Below are positions 8,218 to 34,171 of a stretch of 37,912 bases of DNA, one piece after another (position 1 is the first letter of the stretch; the number at the start of each line of letters is the position of its first letter). The notes under the pieces are model-generated. The model was not told the origin of the DNA. It saw only the letters and a list, made by a program, of their open reading frames with translations, and did not search any database. Origin of the DNA: Microcaldota archaeon (GTDB lineage Archaea; Micrarchaeota; Micrarchaeia; Anstonellales; Bilamarchaeaceae); assembly GCA_023248035.1 (NCBI GenBank), contig JAHFFJ010000006.1:1-37912 (forward strand), read 5' to 3'. The translations under genes and the position numbers were made by a program.

Positions 8218-8787
8218 TTATTTTGAAATTACTTCTATCCTTCCATCAAAATAGTATTTCATACCTATAATTTTGACCCGATCCTCATCGAGTGCCTTCT
8301 TTACAATAGGGCTCTTTTTGAGTTTTCGCATCACAGCCTTCACGTTTGCTACAACTGCCTGCTCTATCTCACTTGTTCGTTCTCCTCCTTTCTTAACTTT
8401 ATTAACGCAAGGAGCTATCTTTTTGACTATTTTTGTAATTTTTGATTCGTCATGTCCATCATAAGCTGCTGTGACTGCACCGCACTTCTCGTGCCCCATT
8501 ACAATAAGCAGTGGGGTATGCAAATGCCCTACACCATACTCTGCCGAACCAATATCAATATCACTAACAATGTTTCCTGCATTGGCTATTGTAAATATCT
8601 CACCGAGATTGGTATCAAATATATATTCAGGAACCACTCTTGAATCCGAGCAGCAAATTACTGTTGCAAGTGGGTGCTGACCGGTTTTTGTCTCTTCTCT
8701 CTTCCCCTTTAGGTCTTTTTGTGAGGTTAATCCCTCGACATACCTTCTGTTTCCTTCCATCAATTTAGCTAAGGTTTCAGATTCCAT
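8218..8787 (-). CDS. Beta-class carbonic anhydrase
   Basis: CCSDSRVVPEYIF (CxDxR), IANAGNIV, MGHEKCGAVTA (HxxC). Confidence 0.93.
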   Translation of the reverse strand: MESETLAKLMEGNRRYVEGLTSQKDLKGKREETKTGQHPLATVICCSDSRVVPEYIFDTNLGEIFTIANAGNIVSDIDIGSAEYGVGHLHTPLLIVMGHEKCGAVTAAYDGHDESKITKIVKKIAPCVNKVKKGGERTSEIEQAVVANVKAVMRKLKKSPIVKKALDEDRVKIIGMKYYFDGRIEVISK

Positions 8788-8848
8788 AAAATCAACCTGA
8801 CTAACAATAACTTATAACATTTAAAAATTAAACCCGTATTGTATTTCC

Positions 8849-9988
8849 ATGGTTACTCAAACAGAAAGAATATACGAACCGCTTTCATCCAGAAGGCCAT
8901 CTACTCAAAAAAAGTCTCCTGATTCAGGCGGTCTTTCACAGGATCTTATCGACCTTAGGCAAAAGCATACCAAATATGTGCTCGGTGTCGGTCCTAACCT
9001 TAGCCAGGAAGAGTCTTTACGTTTTGTACTTGCAGGTAATGATGAACATTTCCGCACTCTTTCGAGGCTTGAAATAAAACCTCGCTCAAGGTATGACAAA
9101 ATAAAGGGGGGCGAAGCAGACTATCTTGTAAATGCATGTTCTGATGCAAGAATTCCTCATCTTGATTCTGAAGAAGATCGGTTCGTGGGTATCTTTATTC
9201 GGGTGGCTGGTAATATTGTAGGTCGGGTGGGAACTCCTGCTTTTGATGAAATGCGAGACGCTCTTAAACTTGTAAAAAATGATGGAGCTTTGATCGTTGA
9301 AGGGCACTCTTGTTGTGGTGCTCTTAAGGCGCATAACGATTGGCGTGAGAGTGGTTCACACTCAACCGGTAACAGTTCACTAGACAATCTTCTTGCAATG
9401 GTTGAAGGTGATAGCCCCACTCTAAATGCACTTCATCAGCGTTCAAGAGCGGATGTTCAGTTCCCATCACTCCGTCCTTCAGCAGCTGTAATCTATGACT
9501 GGGAAGCTGGTTTGGCAGGCGGAATAACTATTGTAAGTCATCACCCTTCACCAATAATAGAAATACTTGAAGCAAACTGGAATCATCGTCATAAGGTTGC
9601 TTTTGAAGATGGTGCAATGGCTGCCAGACTTCAAAATCACCGTCCTCATGTTATTGCTATTGGAACTTCTACTCTCCCCTATAGCCTTGCAACAATAATG
9701 CATACTGAGCAGAATGAGGTCTTTTCTACGACCGGTTCAGAAAAAGGACTGGATGCACTTGACGAAGCCTCGATATTATATGGAATTCAACATCTTGGCA
9801 TTCGTCATATTGCTTTTGTTGCCCCTAGTGAAAAATCTACAGGAAACATGTTCTCAAAATGGGAACGTGATCTTAGGGCAATGACTGTTAATGGTGAGCA
9901 TGTAATTGCAACAATGCTTGATTCTGGAGAATTGAAAATAAGTTGCTTGGGTTACGATTTGGATAGCGGTAAATTGGAAATGAAATAA
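8849..9988 (+). CDS. Double-length beta-carbonic anhydrase-like protein, second domain lacking zinc ligands
   Basis: N half: NACSDARIPHLD...IRVAGNIVGR...IVEGHSCCGALKAH. C half: GTSTLPYSL...VFSTTGSEKGLDALDEASILYGIQHLGIRHIAFVAPSEKSTG parallels a CA domain. Confidence 0.75.
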   Translation: MVTQTERIYEPLSSRRPSTQKKSPDSGGLSQDLIDLRQKHTKYVLGVGPNLSQEESLRFVLAGNDEHFRTLSRLEIKPRSRYDKIKGGEADYLVNACSDARIPHLDSEEDRFVGIFIRVAGNIVGRVGTPAFDEMRDALKLVKNDGALIVEGHSCCGALKAHNDWRESGSHSTGNSSLDNLLAMVEGDSPTLNALHQRSRADVQFPSLRPSAAVIYDWEAGLAGGITIVSHHPSPIIEILEANWNHRHKVAFEDGAMAARLQNHRPHVIAIGTSTLPYSLATIMHTEQNEVFSTTGSEKGLDALDEASILYGIQHLGIRHIAFVAPSEKSTGNMFSKWERDLRAMTVNGEHVIATMLDSGELKISCLGYDLDSGKLEMK

Positions 9989-10008
9989 TCAAAAATAAGG
10001 TTCCCAGA

Positions 10009-11202
10009 TTACTCTCTTCCTGGCACTTTTAATATATTCACTTCAGGGTTATATTGTAAAACCACATCTACCCCACAGGTTTTATTCAAAATCCTCATCT
10101 CTTTTCCATCAAATCCTAAAAGAGTTATTTTTGCTCCATTTTTTGTTGCGGTATTTATCGCTTCCTCTCTGAGGAGTGCACGTTTCACTGAAGTTGCCCT
10201 TAATAACTCAAGATCGGTATCAGTGCAGATTATGTGGCCGTTTCCGTTTGAACCTTCCTTAAGGCTATTTACTCCATTTACATGATTAAGTGCATAGACA
10301 ATTGATCCCATATCATCCCAGGAGAAACTGGTTTCTCCATTACATTCTACTGTTACGCTAAATGCAGTATTAGGGCTCATTCTTGCAAGATATCTCAATG
10401 AATCAGGGGTGTTTGGGCTTAAACGTGCATCAACGCAAGATATCCCCCCAACATCAAGTGCAGGATTATTTGGATCAAGAACCTTTCTCATCAGGAGCGG
10501 ATCGTCTACCAGAATGGCATGGGCATAGTGAGTACCTAGGTTGATTCCTAAATTCCTCACCTTGTCCAGACCTTTTAAGAGTTGGATACGCAATGCATTC
10601 AGTTTCGGGTGGCGTTCAAACAGTTTAGTTTCATTCCACCCAGTTCTATTCATAATAGTAAATTCAAGTGTATCAGAACAAACTGCTGCTATTACAGTAA
10701 TATTACTTTTTCTTATTATTTCACCTAGTTCAAAGTCACTAAGTAATTTTCTCGCTTGATACGCAGCATTTATCATCTCAGCTTGGGGTGAACCAAGCCC
10801 AGAAATCTCGGGTGATATCTGATTAACTAACCTTACTATATGGGGGTGCTCTTCAAAAGTCATACCCCGGCGTTCAAGTTCAATTGCTTTCTTTTTTGCT
10901 GCAACTGCTCCACATGGAATACAACCGCCATGTCCAAGAACTACAAAAGCACCACCTGTCACAGTATTTTCTAAAATTCGCCTTATCTCTTTTTTAGATC
11001 CATCATCGCTAAGATCAACTGCCTGGCCAGCCACCCGTGTGAAACTAACTCCTCTTGCAGAAGATGGAAACTGCCTTTCTTGGAAATGTTGAAAACCTCC
11101 TGCTATGACTGATAAAGATTCAATAAGACCTAATGGTTGTCCAGCTCTTTTCTTTTCGTACAAACCAGTCAATTTTTGAGGATCAGTAATCAATTGTGCC
11201 AT
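10009..11202 (-). CDS. Divergent double-length carbonic anhydrase-like protein
   Basis: FTRVAGQAVDLSD...VVLGHGGCIPCGAVAAKK in N half; GISCVDARLSP...GHIICTD in C half. Confidence 0.6.
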   Translation of the reverse strand: MAQLITDPQKLTGLYEKKRAGQPLGLIESLSVIAGGFQHFQERQFPSSARGVSFTRVAGQAVDLSDDGSKKEIRRILENTVTGGAFVVLGHGGCIPCGAVAAKKKAIELERRGMTFEEHPHIVRLVNQISPEISGLGSPQAEMINAAYQARKLLSDFELGEIIRKSNITVIAAVCSDTLEFTIMNRTGWNETKLFERHPKLNALRIQLLKGLDKVRNLGINLGTHYAHAILVDDPLLMRKVLDPNNPALDVGGISCVDARLSPNTPDSLRYLARMSPNTAFSVTVECNGETSFSWDDMGSIVYALNHVNGVNSLKEGSNGNGHIICTDTDLELLRATSVKRALLREEAINTATKNGAKITLLGFDGKEMRILNKTCGVDVVLQYNPEVNILKVPGRE

Positions 11203-23680: not shown

Positions 23681-23943
23681 CGGGCTCAGAGGGATTTGAA
23701 CCCTCGACCTGCGGATTGCCGCTTTTTAGGAAAAAGTGGCGCAAAAACTCGCGTGCTATTTCCGAAAAAGTAAAAGTCCGACGCTCTACCAAGTTACTCC
23801 CCCACTTTTAGGAAAAGTGGGACCAAAACAGTTTCGTTAATTTTCGCTTCGCGAAAATGTAAATGCGACAAAACGCTAAGGCGTTTTGAAACAATCAGTT
23901 TTGATCCACCTTTTTCCAAAAGGTGGAACTGAGCTATGAGCCC
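23681..23943 (-). tRNA. tRNA-Lys(UUU) with two introns (D-loop ~23791-23926 and 37/38 ~23717-23770)
   Basis: Spliced: GGGCTCA TA GCTC AGTTGGTA GAGC G TCGGA CTTTTAA TCCGC AGGTC GAGGG TTCAAAT CCCTC TGAGCCC G. Acceptor, D and T stems pair perfectly; one mismatch (27-43) in the anticodon stem. Confidence 0.88.
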
Positions 23944-23999
23944 TTAAATAAAATTTACTGAAAGCATTTTAAAAAGCTTGACTCCTAATTAACTTTCAA

Positions 24000-24385
24000 G
24001 CCGGGTTGGCAGATCGGCTATGCGTCCGCCTGCAGCCGCTTTTTAATAAAAAGCTTGGCAAAAACATTCCGTTTCAAAACGCTCCCGCGTTTTGGAGTAA
24101 AATCATTTTTTCGTAAAAGCGAAAAAATTAAGATGGATGTTTTTGGCTCGTCTTTTTCTTAAAAAGGTAGAAAGCGGAAAAGAGGGGTTCAATCTCGCCC
24201 TTTTTTACTAAAAAAGGGCACAAAAAAACCAGAAGTTGCAAAACGCTCTCGCGTTTTGTTGCTGGGTTTTGATAGAACCTTTGCAATTTAGAAAAAATTT
24301 GCATCAAAAACTTATGATAAGTTTTGGTCAAACTTTTCCTAAAAGTTTGAAAAAGGTTTGAATGGAACTATTCCTCTACCCGGCT
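24000..24385 (+). tRNA. tRNA-Cys(GCA) with two introns (37/38 ~24036-24172 and T-loop ~24193-24370)
   Basis: Spliced: GCCGGGT TG GCAG ATCGGCT ATGC G TCCGC CTGCAGA GCGGA AAAG AGGGG TTCAATT CCTCT ACCCGGC T. All stems pair (13-22 non-WC); U73 discriminator as expected for Cys. Confidence 0.9.
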
Positions 24386-26246: not shown

Positions 26247-27188
26247 ATGGATTGTGCTACTAAATCAAGTTTTACCCTTTCTTTTAATACCCGCTCGCAA
26301 ATTCAAAAACTACCATCCTGGCTCAAGATCAAATACGTGGATAATGAACTTACTAACAAAATCGAATCACTATCAAAAAACTATAATCTTCATTCTGTCT
26401 GTCAAAGCGCACACTGCCCAAACCGGAGCGAGTGTTGGTCCCAGGGGACTGCCACATTTATGGTTATGGGTGAGCAATGTACTAGGGGCTGTAGATTTTG
26501 TGCAGTTAGCACCATGAGTAAACCACCACCACTTGATCCAAACGAGCCACAAAATCTTGCTTCTGCAGTTGCTGCACTCAATCTACGCTATGTTGTAATA
26601 ACCTCGGTTGCACGTGATGATCTGGAAGATGAAGGTGCAGGACATTTTGCAGAATGCATAAAGGCTCTTAAGGAAAAACAAGCCGGGCTTCTAATCGAAG
26701 TTCTTGTTCCGGATTTTAAAGCCAAAAAATTTGCCATTAAGAAAATAATTGAAGCACAACCTGATGTGGTTTCTCATAATGTAGAAACTGTTGAAAGACT
26801 TACCCGCTCGATTAGGGATATCCGGGCAAACTATAACCAGTCTCTCGAAGTTCTTCGACTCTATCGCGAAATGTCAAATGAAAAAATAATAACCAAATCC
26901 GGAATGATGGTGGGTTTTGGGGAGAGTGAGGGTGAAATTAGAAAAACCATGTTTGATCTTCGTGCTATTGGTGTGGAAATCTTTACCATTGGTCAATACC
27001 TGCAACCAACAAAAACTCCTCGGCATCTTCCGGTTAAGGAATTCGTTCATCCCGATGTTTTTAAGAAATACGAGCAGATGGGTTACGAAGTCGGTTTCAA
27101 ATACATGGCATGTGGAGCATTGGTGCGCAGTTCGTATAAGGCTGCAGAACCTTTCATAGAAAAAATGATAGTTAGCAGAAATCGTTGA
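26247..27188 (+). CDS. lipA: Lipoyl synthase
   Basis: CQSAHCPNRSECW, CTRGCRFCAV, VITSVARDDLEDEGAGHFAECI, MVGFGE. Confidence 0.96.
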   Translation: MDCATKSSFTLSFNTRSQIQKLPSWLKIKYVDNELTNKIESLSKNYNLHSVCQSAHCPNRSECWSQGTATFMVMGEQCTRGCRFCAVSTMSKPPPLDPNEPQNLASAVAALNLRYVVITSVARDDLEDEGAGHFAECIKALKEKQAGLLIEVLVPDFKAKKFAIKKIIEAQPDVVSHNVETVERLTRSIRDIRANYNQSLEVLRLYREMSNEKIITKSGMMVGFGESEGEIRKTMFDLRAIGVEIFTIGQYLQPTKTPRHLPVKEFVHPDVFKKYEQMGYEVGFKYMACGALVRSSYKAAEPFIEKMIVSRNR

Positions 27189-28428: not shown

Positions 28429-29493
28429 ATGCCAATCACGCAGGTTTTTGAGGGAAAAGTCGATTATATGCAGATAATCGATAAGGATGGCGTAGTTGAT
28501 TCGAAACTTGAACCAAAACTTCCAAACGAACTTCTTGAAAAAATGTATCGTTTTATGGTGCTTGGGCGTATATGGGATAAAAAATGCCTTGTCCTCCAAA
28601 GAACCGGAAGAATGTATACCTATGCTCCACTAGAGGGTCAGGAAGCCATAGCTGTAGGTAGTACGCTTGCAACCGAATCAGGCGATTGGATATTTCCCAC
28701 CTACCGTGAAAGTTTCATCTATCATATAAGAGGTACTCCACTAGACATGATAAATGTGGCGTGGATGGGTATGGAAGATGGCCTCAAGATCGATCCTAGT
28801 CTTTGTTGTTTCCCAATTGCAGTTCCTATCGCTACACAGTTTGTTCATGCAGTTGGTGGTGCATATTCTCTTCGGGCTAAGGGGATAAAATCTGCCGTAC
28901 TGAGTTATGGTGGGGATGGTTCCACAAGTGAGGGAGATTTCCACGATGCACTTAACTTTGCAGGTGTTTGGAATTCACCATGCGTTTTTATTGTTTCAAA
29001 CAACCAGTGGGCAATTTCTGTCCCGAGAAAATGGCAGACAAAATCAGAAACCATCGCACAAAAAGCACTTGCCTATGGCTTTAAGGGAATACAAGTAGAC
29101 GGAAACGATGTTCTTGCAGTATATTCTGCAGTAAAAGAGGCTGCAGATAATGCCCGCTTAGGAAAAGGGCCGGTTCTGATTGAAGCAATAACCTATCGTA
29201 TGGGTCCACACACCACTGCTGACGATCCTAAAAAATACCGGAGCGAGGAAGAGGTTGCTTACTGGAGGGAACGCGATCCAATAAAACGCTTTCAAATTTA
29301 TCTTCAAAAGAAAGGCATATGGAACGAAGAGTATGAGCAAAAGCTTATTGCTGATTGTGCCAAAATTGTTGAAGATGCAGTTACAAAAGCTGAGGCCTAT
29401 ACGCAGGATCCAAAAGATATGTTCAAGTTTGTATTTGCCAAAATGACAAAAGATACAAAAGAGCAAATGGACGAATGCTTTGGAGTTGGATAA
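28429..29493 (+). CDS. pdhA: Pyruvate/2-oxoacid dehydrogenase E1 component, alpha subunit
   Basis: YGGDGSTSEGDFHDALNFAGVWNSPCVFIVSNNQWAIS (TPP motif); YRMGPHTTADDPKKYR. Confidence 0.95.
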   Translation: MPITQVFEGKVDYMQIIDKDGVVDSKLEPKLPNELLEKMYRFMVLGRIWDKKCLVLQRTGRMYTYAPLEGQEAIAVGSTLATESGDWIFPTYRESFIYHIRGTPLDMINVAWMGMEDGLKIDPSLCCFPIAVPIATQFVHAVGGAYSLRAKGIKSAVLSYGGDGSTSEGDFHDALNFAGVWNSPCVFIVSNNQWAISVPRKWQTKSETIAQKALAYGFKGIQVDGNDVLAVYSAVKEAADNARLGKGPVLIEAITYRMGPHTTADDPKKYRSEEEVAYWRERDPIKRFQIYLQKKGIWNEEYEQKLIADCAKIVEDAVTKAEAYTQDPKDMFKFVFAKMTKDTKEQMDECFGVG

Positions 29494-29501
29494 ATGTTGG
29501 G

Positions 29502-29581
29502 GGGTTTCAAATGAGATTGGGATTTGCATGTAGATGGGGATCGAAAACCCCTCTAAGAATTATGTGGAGGGTTTTCAAATG
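29502..29581 (+). repeat. Leader repeat copy 2, ending on the E1-beta start codon
   Basis: GGGTTTCAAATGAGATTG...GATGGGGATCGAAAACCCCTCTAAGAAT...GAGGGTTTTCAAATG; matches minus strand 7413-7491. Confidence 0.75.
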
Positions 29582-30553
29582 AAAATAAATATGGTGGAAG
29601 CAATAAACCTCTGCCTCAAGCAAGAGATGGAAAGAGATAAAAATATCGTCGTCATGGGTGAAGATGTAGGTGTTGATGGTGGCGTATTTAGGGTAACGGA
29701 CGGTCTCTACACGAAGTTTGGTCGGGATAGAGTTATCGATACCCCACTTTCGGAATCAGGAATAATCGGTACGGCAATCGGTATGGCTGCACTTGGCTTA
29801 AGGTCGGTTCCAGAAATTCAGTTCCAGGGTTTTGAATATAATGCCTATCACCATATTGTTCAGCATGCTGCCAGGTTAAGGAATCGTACCCGGGGTGCCC
29901 TAAACGTTCCTATGGTTATCCGTTTGCCCTATAGCGGTGGAATAAAAGCGCTCGAACACCACAGCGAAAGTCTCGAAACTGTTTATCTACATATTCCAGG
30001 ACTTAAACTAGTCTGTCCCTCTTCCCCCTACGATGCAAAAGGTCTTCTTGCTTCCTCACTAAAGGATGAAGATCCAGTACTTTACTTTGAACCAAAACGT
30101 CTCTATCGTGCATTTAAGGAAGAAGTACCGGAAGAGCACTATGAAATTGAGATTGGCAAGGCACATGTGCTAAAAGAAGGCAATGATGTTACTGTTATCT
30201 CATGGGGTGCAATGACCTATATCAGCAAAGAAGCAGTTGCAGAAGCAGAAAAGCAGGGCATTTCAGTAGAACATATCGATCTACGTACCCTTTCACCATG
30301 CGACTGGGAAGCAATACACAAATCAGTTTCCAAAACTGGACGGTGCGTTGTTGTTCATGAGGCTGTGAAAACCCTAGGGTTTGGTGCAGAAATTGCAGCT
30401 AGAATAATGGAGAAAGATTTCCTTAGCCTGGAAGCTCCGGTAAAACGGGTTACTGCCTGGGATATCACAATACCCTATCCTAAAACCGAAGATTATTATT
30501 TTCCAGACAAAAAGAGAATCTTAAAGGGAATAATCGAAACAGCAAAATTCTGA
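29579..30553 (+). CDS. pdhB: Pyruvate/2-oxoacid dehydrogenase E1 component, beta subunit
   Basis: GEDVGVDGGVFRVTDGL, DTPLSESGIIGTAIGMA; ATG 29579 (MKINMVEAINLCL). Confidence 0.95.
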   Translation: MKINMVEAINLCLKQEMERDKNIVVMGEDVGVDGGVFRVTDGLYTKFGRDRVIDTPLSESGIIGTAIGMAALGLRSVPEIQFQGFEYNAYHHIVQHAARLRNRTRGALNVPMVIRLPYSGGIKALEHHSESLETVYLHIPGLKLVCPSSPYDAKGLLASSLKDEDPVLYFEPKRLYRAFKEEVPEEHYEIEIGKAHVLKEGNDVTVISWGAMTYISKEAVAEAEKQGISVEHIDLRTLSPCDWEAIHKSVSKTGRCVVVHEAVKTLGFGAEIAARIMEKDFLSLEAPVKRVTAWDITIPYPKTEDYYFPDKKRILKGIIETAKF

Positions 30554-30567
30554 ATTTGGTGTACAAA

Positions 30568-31845
30568 ATGGCAAAAGAATTTAAATTTCCTGATGTTGGC
30601 GAAGGAATTCACGAAGGTACTATTGTAAAATGGCACTTTAAAGAAGGTGATGCTGTCAAGGCTGACCAGACTATTGTTGAAGTTGAGACTGATAAGGCCG
30701 TAGTTGAACTTCCTTCTCCCAATACCGGCACCATACTCAAGATAAATCACACTGTTGGTCAAGTGATCAAGGTTGGGGAGGTTTTAGTCGTCATAGGTGA
30801 ATCAGGTGAAAAAATCGACTCTATCCCCACTCTTAAAACTATTACTGAAAAAAATGTGGTTGAAAATAATCAAATAGAACGCCAACATTCGAAATCAGTT
30901 TCTGAAATTACGCTTCCATCATCCTCTTCCCACGTTCCAATCGCCACCCCGTCTACAAGGAAACTAGCACGTGAACTTGGTGTAGATCTCTCTTTAGTTA
31001 AAGGAAGCGGACCTGGAGGAAGAATAACTGATGATGATGTTCGGACAGCCAAACCTTCAAACCAAGTTCAACAAAGTATTTCATCGCCTGCTCTTGCACC
31101 TCAAAAATCTACCCCCTCCCCAATGGTGGTTAATAGTGAAGAGGGAGATCAAAGGATTCCACTTACTGGTATAAGAAAAGTAATTGCTCAAAGAATGACC
31201 TATTCCAAAACTCACATTCCCCATGCCTGTGGAATGGATTTTGTTGATGTAACCCGGCTTGTTGCAGTTAGAGAAAAAGAAAAATCCTCACTGGCAGCTC
31301 GGGGAGTGAAACTTACCTACCTTCCATTTGTTATTAAGGCATGCACGGTTGCCCTCCGTAAATATCCAAGCTTTAATGCCCATTTTGATTCTGAAAAAAA
31401 TGAACTTATTGCAAAAAAGGCATTCAACATTGGCATTGCAGTTGATACACCTGATGGATTAATTGTCCCTGTGATTAAGAATGTTGAAAAGAAATCCATA
31501 ATGGATATTGCAAGTGAAATAGAAAATCTTGCTGCACTTGCACGCGAGCGAAAGCTTAAACTCGAGGACTTAAAAGATGCAACTTTTACTATAACCAATA
31601 TTGGTAGCGTTGGGGGGATGTTTTCAACTCCCATCATAAATCCTCCTGAAGTTGCAATTATGGGCATTCATAGGATAAGGGATATGCCCATGGTTTTTAA
31701 TGGAAGGATCGAAGCAAGAAAAGTAATGGGTGTTTCACTCTGTTTTGATCATAGGGTGGTAGATGGTGCACTGGCAACTGAATTCATGAATGTTGTAAAG
31801 CAACATCTGGAAGACCCCGACCTTCTCCTTGTGGAAATGGTATGA
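30568..31845 (+). CDS. pdhC: Dihydrolipoamide acyltransferase (E2)
   Basis: Lipoyl domain VETDKAVVELPSP, E3-binding domain TPSTRKLARELGVDLSLVKGSGPGGRITDDDV, catalytic DHRVVDGA. Confidence 0.96.
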   Translation: MAKEFKFPDVGEGIHEGTIVKWHFKEGDAVKADQTIVEVETDKAVVELPSPNTGTILKINHTVGQVIKVGEVLVVIGESGEKIDSIPTLKTITEKNVVENNQIERQHSKSVSEITLPSSSSHVPIATPSTRKLARELGVDLSLVKGSGPGGRITDDDVRTAKPSNQVQQSISSPALAPQKSTPSPMVVNSEEGDQRIPLTGIRKVIAQRMTYSKTHIPHACGMDFVDVTRLVAVREKEKSSLAARGVKLTYLPFVIKACTVALRKYPSFNAHFDSEKNELIAKKAFNIGIAVDTPDGLIVPVIKNVEKKSIMDIASEIENLAALARERKLKLEDLKDATFTITNIGSVGGMFSTPIINPPEVAIMGIHRIRDMPMVFNGRIEARKVMGVSLCFDHRVVDGALATEFMNVVKQHLEDPDLLLVEMV

Positions 31846-31847
31846 AA

Positions 31848-32642
31848 TTAAGCAACTGTACGCAATTCTTTTCTATCAGTTATTTTTACTAAATCAAATT
31901 CAGAAATCATGCATAAAACGCTGTCATACTCCAGAACTGGTTCATTGGCAAATATATAATCATGACCAAAAACATAGCGAGTTGGCATTCCAATATAAGA
32001 ACCCTTTAATCTTTGGAAGAAAACTCCAGCCAGACCATTTGAGAATTCTCCATCCAAAGCTGAAATATCTATTGGAATAGTGCCATCCGAATTCTGTTTA
32101 CGATTGTACCAACCAGTTTTCTTAGGAAAGTTTTCTAAATGAGATAAACGATCGCCAGTAACATTTATATCAACTCTTCGAACCACTTCCCCAGTCTTTT
32201 CAACAACAAAATCAGAAGATTTTGGATCTCTTACAACAAGCGCGATATTTGAAGCGCCCCTATATTCGCCAGTTGGGAAAAAAATTGTAGGTTGATCTTT
32301 CTGTGTATATCGAATATATTTACCAAGTTCTTTGTTTGGTGCAGTATAAGCAATCATATCTGGAAGATAAAATGTTCTAACTCCGAAATCATTTAATCTT
32401 CTAAAAGGAGCCCTACTATCTGGTTTATCACGAACTACATCCAAAATACCCTGAGCTTCAGTTGCAGTAACTAAACGTATGCCTGTACCATACGTTGTAT
32501 TAAAAGCTTCAATAGCTCCAGGTACTTTGAAAAAAGGAAGTTGCGGTCCTGGGAAGGTGTGCTGAGGAGAAAAAACTCCGACATTAACTGTTTCATTCTT
32601 TAGTCTAAAAGTTAAAACATTCATGGTATGTGGGTGGTTCAT
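31848..32642 (-). CDS. Orphan hypothetical protein inserted antisense between E2 and E3
   Basis: 264 aa ORF, no recognised family; probable start at 32642 or 32624. Confidence 0.6.
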   Translation of the reverse strand: MNHPHTMNVLTFRLKNETVNVGVFSPQHTFPGPQLPFFKVPGAIEAFNTTYGTGIRLVTATEAQGILDVVRDKPDSRAPFRRLNDFGVRTFYLPDMIAYTAPNKELGKYIRYTQKDQPTIFFPTGEYRGASNIALVVRDPKSSDFVVEKTGEVVRRVDINVTGDRLSHLENFPKKTGWYNRKQNSDGTIPIDISALDGEFSNGLAGVFFQRLKGSYIGMPTRYVFGHDYIFANEPVLEYDSVLCMISEFDLVKITDRKELRTVA

Positions 32643-32761
32643 TTATATCAATTAACTAACTTTGGTTTAAAAAAGTATTTACAATTTATAGGCAAAAACA
32701 AATTCTATCAACATGAAGTTAAACTTAAGAAGTTTGGGTGTCTTTTAACAAAAGTGGAAAA

Positions 32762-34171
32762 ATGGTAATGGGACAACTTACAACCGATGTTGATCTTGCA
32801 GTAGTTGGCGGAGGTCCTGGTGGCTATACAGCAGCTATTCGTGCAGCACAGCTTGGGCTTAATGTAATTCTAATAGAGAAAGATAAACTTGGCGGAACAT
32901 GTACTAATTTAGGTTGCATCCCAGCCAAGGCACTAATTCATGCTGCTGATGTAAAACACGAGGCAGAAATTGATAATACAAAGAACATGGGTATCGAGGC
33001 AACTGTGAAAGTAGATTTTGAAAAAACACAAAAATGGAAGGACTCAGTTGTCGCAGATATCCGTGCCAGTGTGGAAAAACTTTGCAAGCTAAACGGCGTG
33101 GAAATAATCGCTGGCGTGGGGTTTTTTACTTCCTCAAATGCATTGTCTGTTGAAACCAATAATGGCATGCGCTCAATCGCTTTCAAAAAGGCAATAATAG
33201 CAACAGGCACTTTCATTAAAGATCTACCAAATCTCCCAACCGACCATCAAAAAATAATCAATTCAAACGATGTGTTTTCACTTAAAGAAATTCCCAAACA
33301 ACTAATCATAATTGGTGGGGGTTACATTGCAGTTGAAATGGCAAACCTGTTCATGAAGTTTGGTTCAAAAGTAACCATTGTTCATCATGGCCCTAGACTC
33401 CTTAAGCGCATGGAACCGGATATAGCATCTATATTACTTGCAAAAATAAAGGAGATGGGTGGGGAAGTTTTCTTTGATAGTGATGTAGAATCATTTTCAG
33501 GTAATACTGCAAATTTAAAGACTCCAGATGGCGTCAAATCAGTTGTTTTCGATAAGCTCCTTGTTGCAACTGGACGTGTTCCGGCACTTGAAGAATTAAG
33601 GCTTGAACATACCGAGGTCAAACTTGATCCAGATGGTTTTGTTATTGTTGATAAGACCATGAAAACAACCGATGAAAATATCTATGCTGTTGGGGATATT
33701 GTCCCTGGTCTTGAGCTTGCACATAAGGCATTTAAGGAAGGCAAGGTTGCTGCCGAAGTCATAGCTGGTCTTAAGAGCGCATTTGATAATATTGCCATTC
33801 CAATGGTGGTTTTTTCCGATCCTGAAATTGCTGTTGTAGGCCTTAGTGAAGATGAGGCCAAAGAGCAAGGCTACAAAGTGAAAATTGGTAAGATGCCATT
33901 TAGTGCAGTTGGTAAGGCCAAAGTCCTAAACCGAACGGAAGGATTTGCAAAAATTGTCGCAGATGAGAATGGTGTCGTTCTAGGTGTCCATATTGTTGGT
34001 GCAGGCGCAGGAAAACTTATTGCCGAGGGTTGCCTTGCAATAGAAATGGGTGCCCTTCTGGAAGATGTTGCATCAACCATACACGCACACCCCACTCTCC
34101 CAGAAATCCTTGCTGAAGCTGCAGAGAATGCGCTTGGTCGTGGAATTCACATTTATAAGCCAAAAATATAG
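32762..34171 (+). CDS. lpdA: Dihydrolipoamide dehydrogenase (E3)
   Basis: VVGGGPGGYTAAIRAAQLG, GGTCTNLGCIPAKAL, AVGDIVPGLELAHKA, HAHPTLPEILAEAA. Confidence 0.97.
   Translation: MVMGQLTTDVDLAVVGGGPGGYTAAIRAAQLGLNVILIEKDKLGGTCTNLGCIPAKALIHAADVKHEAEIDNTKNMGIEATVKVDFEKTQKWKDSVVADIRASVEKLCKLNGVEIIAGVGFFTSSNALSVETNNGMRSIAFKKAIIATGTFIKDLPNLPTDHQKIINSNDVFSLKEIPKQLIIIGGGYIAVEMANLFMKFGSKVTIVHHGPRLLKRMEPDIASILLAKIKEMGGEVFFDSDVESFSGNTANLKTPDGVKSVVFDKLLVATGRVPALEELRLEHTEVKLDPDGFVIVDKTMKTTDENIYAVGDIVPGLELAHKAFKEGKVAAEVIAGLKSAFDNIAIPMVVFSDPEIAVVGLSEDEAKEQGYKVKIGKMPFSAVGKAKVLNRTEGFAKIVADENGVVLGVHIVGAGAGKLIAEGCLAIEMGALLEDVASTIHAHPTLPEILAEAAENALGRGIHIYKPKI

Follow-up and report, generated by a model that had tools for sequence, protein, structure and literature searches.

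The introns of the tRNA-Lys(UUU) and tRNA-Cys(GCA) genes in the stretch of archaeal DNA analyzed here (37,912 nt in full; hereafter "the window") are likely members of a family of non-autonomous, mobile, splice-competent bulge-helix-bulge (BHB) introns. The introns are shown to be homologous and dispersed, their junctions to be capable of forming BHBs, some congeners to have empty sites, and the genome to carry both enzyme genes, whereas actual splicing, the neutrality of the insertions, and the direction of change as gain are inferred.

The window corresponds to contig C69 in an archaeal genome bin (MAG) with 83 contigs and a size of 1.17 Mb. By aRF1, the closest named relatives of the host are Micrarchaeota bins, including LFW-283_2, the type of Ca. 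Bilamarchaeum dharawalense (PMC8561730). Neither ARAGORN nor Rfam found a tRNA in the unspliced 37,912-nt window, and only three Rfam-detectable tRNAs are present in the whole host genome. Because these raw searches are blind to the tRNAs in the window, a splice-aware alignment was used, in which the tRNAs of relatives were aligned to the genome with long gaps allowed; matches were kept from a score of 24, and the maximum in a reversed control, which covered about one-quarter of the genome on one strand, was 21.3. Among the other genes of the window, all identified by eye, are an operon at 28429-34171 for a complete pyruvate dehydrogenase complex (E1 alpha, E1 beta, E2, and dihydrolipoamide dehydrogenase), which is unusual for a DPANN archaeon, a lipoyl synthase at 26247-27188, and three neighboring ORFs at 8218-11202, the first of which resembles a beta-carbonic anhydrase and the others loosely resemble the first.

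Table 1. Coordinates of the two tRNA loci and their introns in the window, and of copies in 23S rRNA and C/D box sRNAs (contig or locus given where outside the window).
Feature	Position	Strand	Basis or remarks
tRNA-Lys(UUU) gene, two introns	23681..23943	-	exons 23929-23943, 23771-23793, 23681-23716; splice-aware alignment
D-loop intron of tRNA-Lys(UUU), 135 nt	23794..23928	-	covariance model, E 2.3e-18
5' (L) terminal hairpin TCCACCTTTT-GGA-AAAAGGTGGA, then T-CAAAA; tRNA-Lys(UUU) D-loop intron	23905..23927	-	half-element scan
Core hairpin CAAAACGC-CTTA-GCGTTTTG; tRNA-Lys(UUU) D-loop intron	23869..23888	-	pattern count
Second core hairpin ATTTTCGCGAAGCGAAAAT; tRNA-Lys(UUU) D-loop intron	23840..23858	-	sequence; equivalent place in related introns
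3' (R) terminal hairpin CCCACTTTT-CCT-AAAAGTGGG, preceded by TTTTGGT; tRNA-Lys(UUU) D-loop intron	23801..23821	-	half-element scan
37/38 intron of tRNA-Lys(UUU), 54 nt	23717..23770	-	R hairpin only; relaxed BHB
tRNA-Cys(GCA) gene, two introns	24000..24384	+	exons 24000-24035, 24173-24192, 24371-24384
37/38 intron of tRNA-Cys(GCA), 137 nt	24036..24172	+	covariance model, E 7.1e-10
Core hairpin CAAAACGC-TCCC-GCGTTTTG; tRNA-Cys(GCA) 37/38 intron	24075..24094	+	pattern count
T-loop (58/59) intron of tRNA-Cys(GCA), 178 nt	24193..24370	+	covariance model, E 1.5e-8
L terminal hairpin GCCCTTTTTT-ACT-AAAAAAGGGC; tRNA-Cys(GCA) 58/59 intron	24197..24219	+	half-element scan
Core hairpin CAAAACGC-TCTC-GCGTTTTG; tRNA-Cys(GCA) 58/59 intron	24239..24258	+	pattern count
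Mini-element (hairpin-ATCAAAAACTTATGATAAGTTTTGGTC-hairpin) nested in R (3') hairpin; tRNA-Cys(GCA) 58/59 intron	24281..24350	+	sequence
23S rRNA insert of the tRNA-intron family (locus L083)	C81:1666-1852		between GCAT and CTAAGG; BHB-type, <200 nt, non-coding
C/D box sRNA copies between D' and C'	C75:15650-15760, C83:4170-4250; L225, L235, L248, L249, L253		

When the exons of the two genes are joined in silico, ARAGORN calls Lys(ttt) and Cys(gca), respectively. The first-pass annotation, made from the sequence alone, had claimed introns in the D loop of tRNA-Lys and at position 37/38 and in the T loop of tRNA-Cys, all of which are present at the given place (Table 1). Its claim that these introns, that in the T loop in part, share one layout also held and can be extended in two respects. 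The 37/38 intron of tRNA-Lys(UUU) has an end hairpin of the family type, but its match to the covariance model is weak (E 0.047), and the T-loop intron of tRNA-Cys(GCA) is compound, with a nested mini-element that resembles those in C/D sRNAs (84% over 62 nt with the sRNA copy L248).

Pairwise similarity among the introns of the window is modest, with BLAST scores of 35–42 bits versus a best score of 39.7 bits in ten shuffles of all introns; hence, the case for homology is carried by a covariance model and the genome-wide set. The first-pass annotation had proposed a covariance model of the three introns as a check; the model used here was instead trained on six introns outside the window, excluding the window itself and the near-copy in tRNA-Lys(CUU). 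Over its full length, it matches the D-loop intron of tRNA-Lys(UUU) and both introns of tRNA-Cys(GCA) (E values in Table 1). MAFFT alignments of whole introns slip in the A/T runs, and RNAalifold retained the terminal hairpins only; the covariance model worked regardless. The hairpin CAAAACGC-N4-GCGTTTTG occurs five times in 1.17 Mb, exclusively in tRNA introns, with three occurrences in the window and the others in tRNA-Lys(CUU) and tRNA-Thr(GGU). The D-loop introns of tRNA-Lys UUU and CUU are located at the same position and share 98.5% identity, and that of tRNA-Lys(UUU) is also similar to the 37/38 introns of a tRNA-Thr (76% identity, 126 nt) and of tRNA-Glu(CUC) (77% identity, 128 nt).

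The introns of the window are part of a genome-wide pattern. Thirty-seven tRNA genes were accepted from the splice-aware alignment, and three more, for Cys, Gly(UCC), and Arg(GCG), were identified by inspection of the sequence; at least 39 of these 40 genes are interrupted, the sole uninterrupted one being tRNA-Leu(GAG). The 78 insertions catalogued in 37 tRNA genes measure 21–238 nt each, with up to four introns per tRNA, and are located near position 37/38 (24), in the D arm (22), in the T arm (18), or elsewhere (14). Almost all spliced sequences (38 of 39) are recognized as tRNAs, a few with the wrong anticodon because the exon edges were set by alignment.

The full layout of the family comprises a palindromic hairpin followed by CAAAAC, one or more core hairpins, and GTTTTG followed by another palindromic hairpin. 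Half-elements, in which a self-complementary hairpin containing runs of T and A precedes CAAAA, were found 110 times in the genome versus 5 times in a Markov shuffle. Viewed from the CAAAA side, both ends have an AGG-like three-base loop (exactly AGG in 42 of 89 cases; 91% purine), so that the ends represent inverted repeats with the RNA loops AGG and CCU. Among 27 elements, the arms of the two terminal hairpins are never identical, yet each arm pair is self-complementary. The terminal hairpins covary, with frequent compensatory changes; the underlying alignment is model-fitted and includes both strands, so the counts lean towards structure. Genome-wide, the covariance model matches 56 places at E ≤ 0.01, with both strands counted because the elements are quasi-palindromic. 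Several short or odd introns lack the family signature.

Homology of introns across non-homologous sites is evident throughout the genome. An all-against-all comparison of 68 introns and elements yielded 594 pairs at E ≤ 1e-3, versus 0–5 in dinucleotide shuffles. Between different tRNAs and different positions, intron bodies reach 85–91% identity. The best matches link different sites, namely the anticodon-loop intron of tRNA-Glu(UUC) and the T-loop intron of tRNA-Gln (90.6% over 212 nt), the T-loop intron of tRNA-Arg and the 37/38 intron of tRNA-Val (85.6% over 209 nt), the anticodon-loop intron of tRNA-Glu and the D-loop intron of tRNA-Thr (84.7% over 203 nt), and a tRNA-Val 37/38 intron and an insert in the 23S rRNA gene (89.6% over 125 nt). 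Intron bodies that are about 90% alike differ in their terminal tetranucleotides and hairpin arms, each fitting its own exon. Movement of the introns is therefore well supported. The first-pass annotation had inferred movement between tRNA sites, and would have been refuted by a lack of copies in relatives or by similarity no better than that of shuffled sequences; neither is the case, as relatives carry copies and the similarity is far above that of shuffles. Its inference is supported, although the movement is not confined to tRNA sites, and splicing is inferred in the absence of RNA data.

The junctions of the introns have a clear potential to form BHB structures. A full 4-bp BHB helix is present in 63% of the 78 introns versus 15% of a null set of mismatched partners, in which the 5' junction of one intron was combined with the 3' junction of another from its class; the combination of the 4-bp helix with an exon helix occurs in 38% of the introns versus 2% of the null set. 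In the window, the full helix is formed by the D-loop intron of tRNA-Lys(UUU) (GCUC/GAGU, with 3-nt bulges and a 3-bp inner helix) and by the 37/38 intron (CUGC/GUAG, with one G-U) and the 58/59 intron (GUUC/GAAC, with 3-nt bulges; junction read from the sequence) of tRNA-Cys(GCA), i.e., by three of the four introns, and is relaxed in the 37/38 intron of tRNA-Lys(UUU). The genome encodes an EndA of 402 aa with a full-length match to the ARMAN-2 endonuclease 4fz2 (E 1e-129), which is of the epsilon2 type, and an RtcB (contig C18). Epsilon2 endonucleases have a broad choice of substrates (PMC12397907, PMC4033280), and it is inferred, without RNA data, that the introns are excised by the epsilon2-type EndA and RtcB of this genome. 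A second EndA-like protein (C5:1-339, L008), which is short and has the fold of the catalytic domain, has homologues in most congeners; its catalytic histidine appears, by eye, to be missing. A connection between this second gene and intron load was rejected: the gene is absent from the element-free, nearly uninterrupted G003, but the other genomes do not follow.

Copies of the family are also present outside tRNA genes. At its junction, the 23S rRNA insert forms AAGC/GCUU, along with an inner helix of CCC/GGG and bulges of 3 nt; removal of the insert restores the conserved sequence of the empty site exactly. The empty site, in which CTGAAAGCAT directly adjoins CTAAG, is intact in 11 of the 17 genomes of the genus; it is filled in the host genome and unresolved in the other five congeners. 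In the C/D sRNA, which is ordered as box C, GCAATACC guide, D', C', GATCTTGAGTT guide, and D, the element is located between D' and C' in six genomes (G000, G005, G010, G011, G013, and G016), and its place is taken by a short loop in six others (G002, G004, G007, G008, G014, and G015); excision of the element from this RNA is not established. Comparison of filled and empty sites revealed no target-site duplication in either 23S rRNA or the C/D sRNA. Single copies or halves are found also beside tRNA ends and in leader, trailer, UTR, and intergenic positions. A search for Rfam ribozyme cores (group I/II intron) gave no match in the window, and 126 kb around other copies matched only SSU and LSU rRNA. 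In the C/D sRNA element of G011, a further insertion is located within the hairpin, and only one hairpin is left in G012; tandem GATGAAGTTTGATGAAACTTT-type repeats adjoin the C/D sRNA copy on contig C83 (4010-4330).

The family is found across the genus. The pattern CTTTTNNNAAAAGN{3,8}CAAAA matches 42 times in the host genome, 2–18 times in 15 of the 16 congeners, 12–14 times in a sister genus, and mostly 0–2 times elsewhere in the phylum; the reversed control pattern is absent from all 16 congeners and matches once in the host genome. The matches in G216 resemble simple A/T-rich repeats, and the copies in G275 are located near genes and tRNAs. A member of another family, G076, harbors multicopy elements of ~150 bp (L191, L195, L203, L207, L211, and L215) with similar hairpin-CCAAAA ends and nearly identical interiors, several of which adjoin tRNA genes; L203 is accompanied by a partial duplication of the 3' end of tRNA-Leu. 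The number of Rfam-detectable tRNAs per genome ranges from 3 to 36 in the genus, which indicates that intron load changes within a single genus, and in two congeners, G009 and G015, the D-loop intron is missing from tRNA-Lys(CUU). Since certain 37/38 introns, for instance the one in tRNA-Ile, recur at one position throughout the genus, part of the intron set is vertically inherited, and it is likely, as an inference, that the family grew from older canonical introns.

In the proposed mechanism, a full copy is an inverted-repeat element that begins with the hairpin with the AGG-type loop and ends with the hairpin with the CCU-type loop. Upon insertion into the loop of a structured RNA, its outer nucleotides would form a BHB together with the host exon, with the 3' end of the intron supplying four nucleotides complementary to the 5' exon. 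The epsilon2-type endonuclease would then cut the BHB and RtcB would join the exons, rendering the insertion silent. Copies have spread between tRNA genes and positions, to 23S rRNA, and to the D'-C' loop of C/D sRNAs. Whether the copying route leads via DNA or RNA is undecided and open in either direction. A DNA route is suggested by the inversion of the hairpin ends and by those copies that are located outside RNA genes. An RNA route is suggested by the element's preference for the loops of RNAs, by the missing target-site duplications, and by 3' ends that match their sites. A simple cut-and-paste element would not explain the site-fitted intron 3' ends and hairpin arms. A Y1/REP (RAYT) transposase was rejected as the mover, because it is present in only 2 of the 11 genomes searched; all but one of the nine genomes without a Y1 transposase carry several copies of the element. 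Two genes for Y1 (IS200-like) transposases are located in the host genome (C15:17206-17562 and C45:41682-42038). An exact pattern search found no viral carrier.

Among the alternative explanations, the most serious is a MITE- or REPIN-like DNA element moved by an unidentified transposase that recognizes the hairpin ends, in which case the location in RNA genes would merely reflect the survivorship of spliceable or harmless insertions. It is supported by the terminal inverted repeats, whose L and R ends both read hairpin(AGG)-CAAAA inward, by copies located between genes and in leaders, trailers, and UTRs, and by the multicopy elements with similar ends beside the tRNA genes of G076. However, target-site duplications are lacking at the empty sites of 23S rRNA and sRNA, the copies are strongly concentrated in the loops of structured RNAs, and no common transposase was found, so that this explanation remains possible but is slightly disfavored.

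A spread driven chiefly by gene conversion or by recombination among tRNA genes, without any element-specific mobility, would account for introns at the same position of sister tRNAs, such as the near-identical D-loop introns of tRNA-Lys UUU and CUU (98.5%) and the T-loop introns of tRNA-Val, and could make use of the D- and T-arm sequences common to tRNA genes. It is nevertheless unlikely: the closest pairs include introns at different positions, without obvious flanking similarity to guide an exchange, copies occur also in C/D sRNAs and UTRs, and the present data suggest that most shared bodies are located at non-homologous sites. Convergence towards one layout, imposed by the requirements of the endonuclease or of A/T-rich folding, would be in line with terminal hairpins that are low-complexity A/T runs and whose arms vary by site yet remain self-complementary. 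By contrast, the excess of significant pairs over dinucleotide shuffles (594 versus 0–5), identities of 80–90% over ~200 nt, the near-absence of the reversed pattern (0 in 16 congeners and 1 versus 42 in the host genome), and the rarity of the motif in most genomes of related families that also encode EndA homologues render convergence very unlikely.

The preferred reading thus remains that of a family of mobile, splice-competent BHB introns. A bolder version of it, for which the present evidence falls a little short, would be an archaeal counterpart of introners, i.e., an active and selfish, splice-competent hairpin element that targets the loops of tRNA, rRNA, C/D sRNA, and its own copies and whose site-matched 3' end is made at insertion. 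If true, the tRNA introns of these archaea would be the portion of this element that is visible. How archaeal tRNA introns originate has long been unresolved; in the open-access literature searched, the sole earlier case in which movement is clear concerns the hyperthermophilic Thermoproteales. Here, a single genus comprises species with nearly uninterrupted tRNA sets alongside species in which nearly every tRNA is interrupted. Because the element is recognizable by its sequence and both filled and empty sites are available in tRNA, 23S rRNA, and C/D sRNA, how it is gained and lost, which targets it chooses, and how it is linked to the epsilon2 endonuclease can be tested directly. That a plain tRNA model finds only three tRNAs in this genome could also distort statements on completeness and codon use of DPANN archaea.

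Multiple-intron tRNAs are known from ARMAN-1 and -2 (PMC4033280); the open-access literature contained no further report for Micrarchaeota and no report of tRNA introns shared with C/D sRNAs, which is weak evidence given the restriction to open licenses. In Asgard archaea (Atabeyarchaeia and Freyarchaeia), the intron load is similarly heavy, with 92–95% of the tRNA genes interrupted, many of them at non-canonical positions and often by several introns per gene; numbers and positions are reported, but the relevant sections mention no repeated element, structure, or copies in rRNA or sRNA (PMC11291895). Archaeal rRNA BHB introns, such as the 16S introns of Thermoproteales (PMC4496867), resemble the 23S copy in their BHB junctions, splicing enzymes, and conserved rRNA sites. 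However, many of them encode LAGLIDADG homing endonucleases, whereas the 23S copy is non-coding and represents the very element found as tRNA introns. Eukaryotic introners are non-autonomous repeats with copies that are spliceable by the spliceosome, and bacterial REPINs are non-autonomous repeats with inverted hairpin ends that are driven by RAYTs; neither is homologous to the introns of Micrarchaeota, and the likeness is one of analogy only. The closest parallel is found in Thermoproteales, where similar introns at different tRNA positions have been attributed to burst-like gain by an unknown mechanism (Fujishima et al. 2010, as cited in PMC4090602 and PMC4033280). Both systems share near-identical introns at non-homologous positions or in different tRNAs, but the Micrarchaeota family belongs to another phylum, reaches intron lengths of 238 nt with as many as four introns per tRNA, has a defined architecture of inverted-repeat hairpins, and includes copies in 23S rRNA and C/D sRNA whose sites are empty in some congeners, a contrast not based on a sequence comparison. 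Although the transposition of tRNA introns as such is already known from Thermoproteales, the defined element, its rRNA and sRNA targets, and its turnover within a genus are new.
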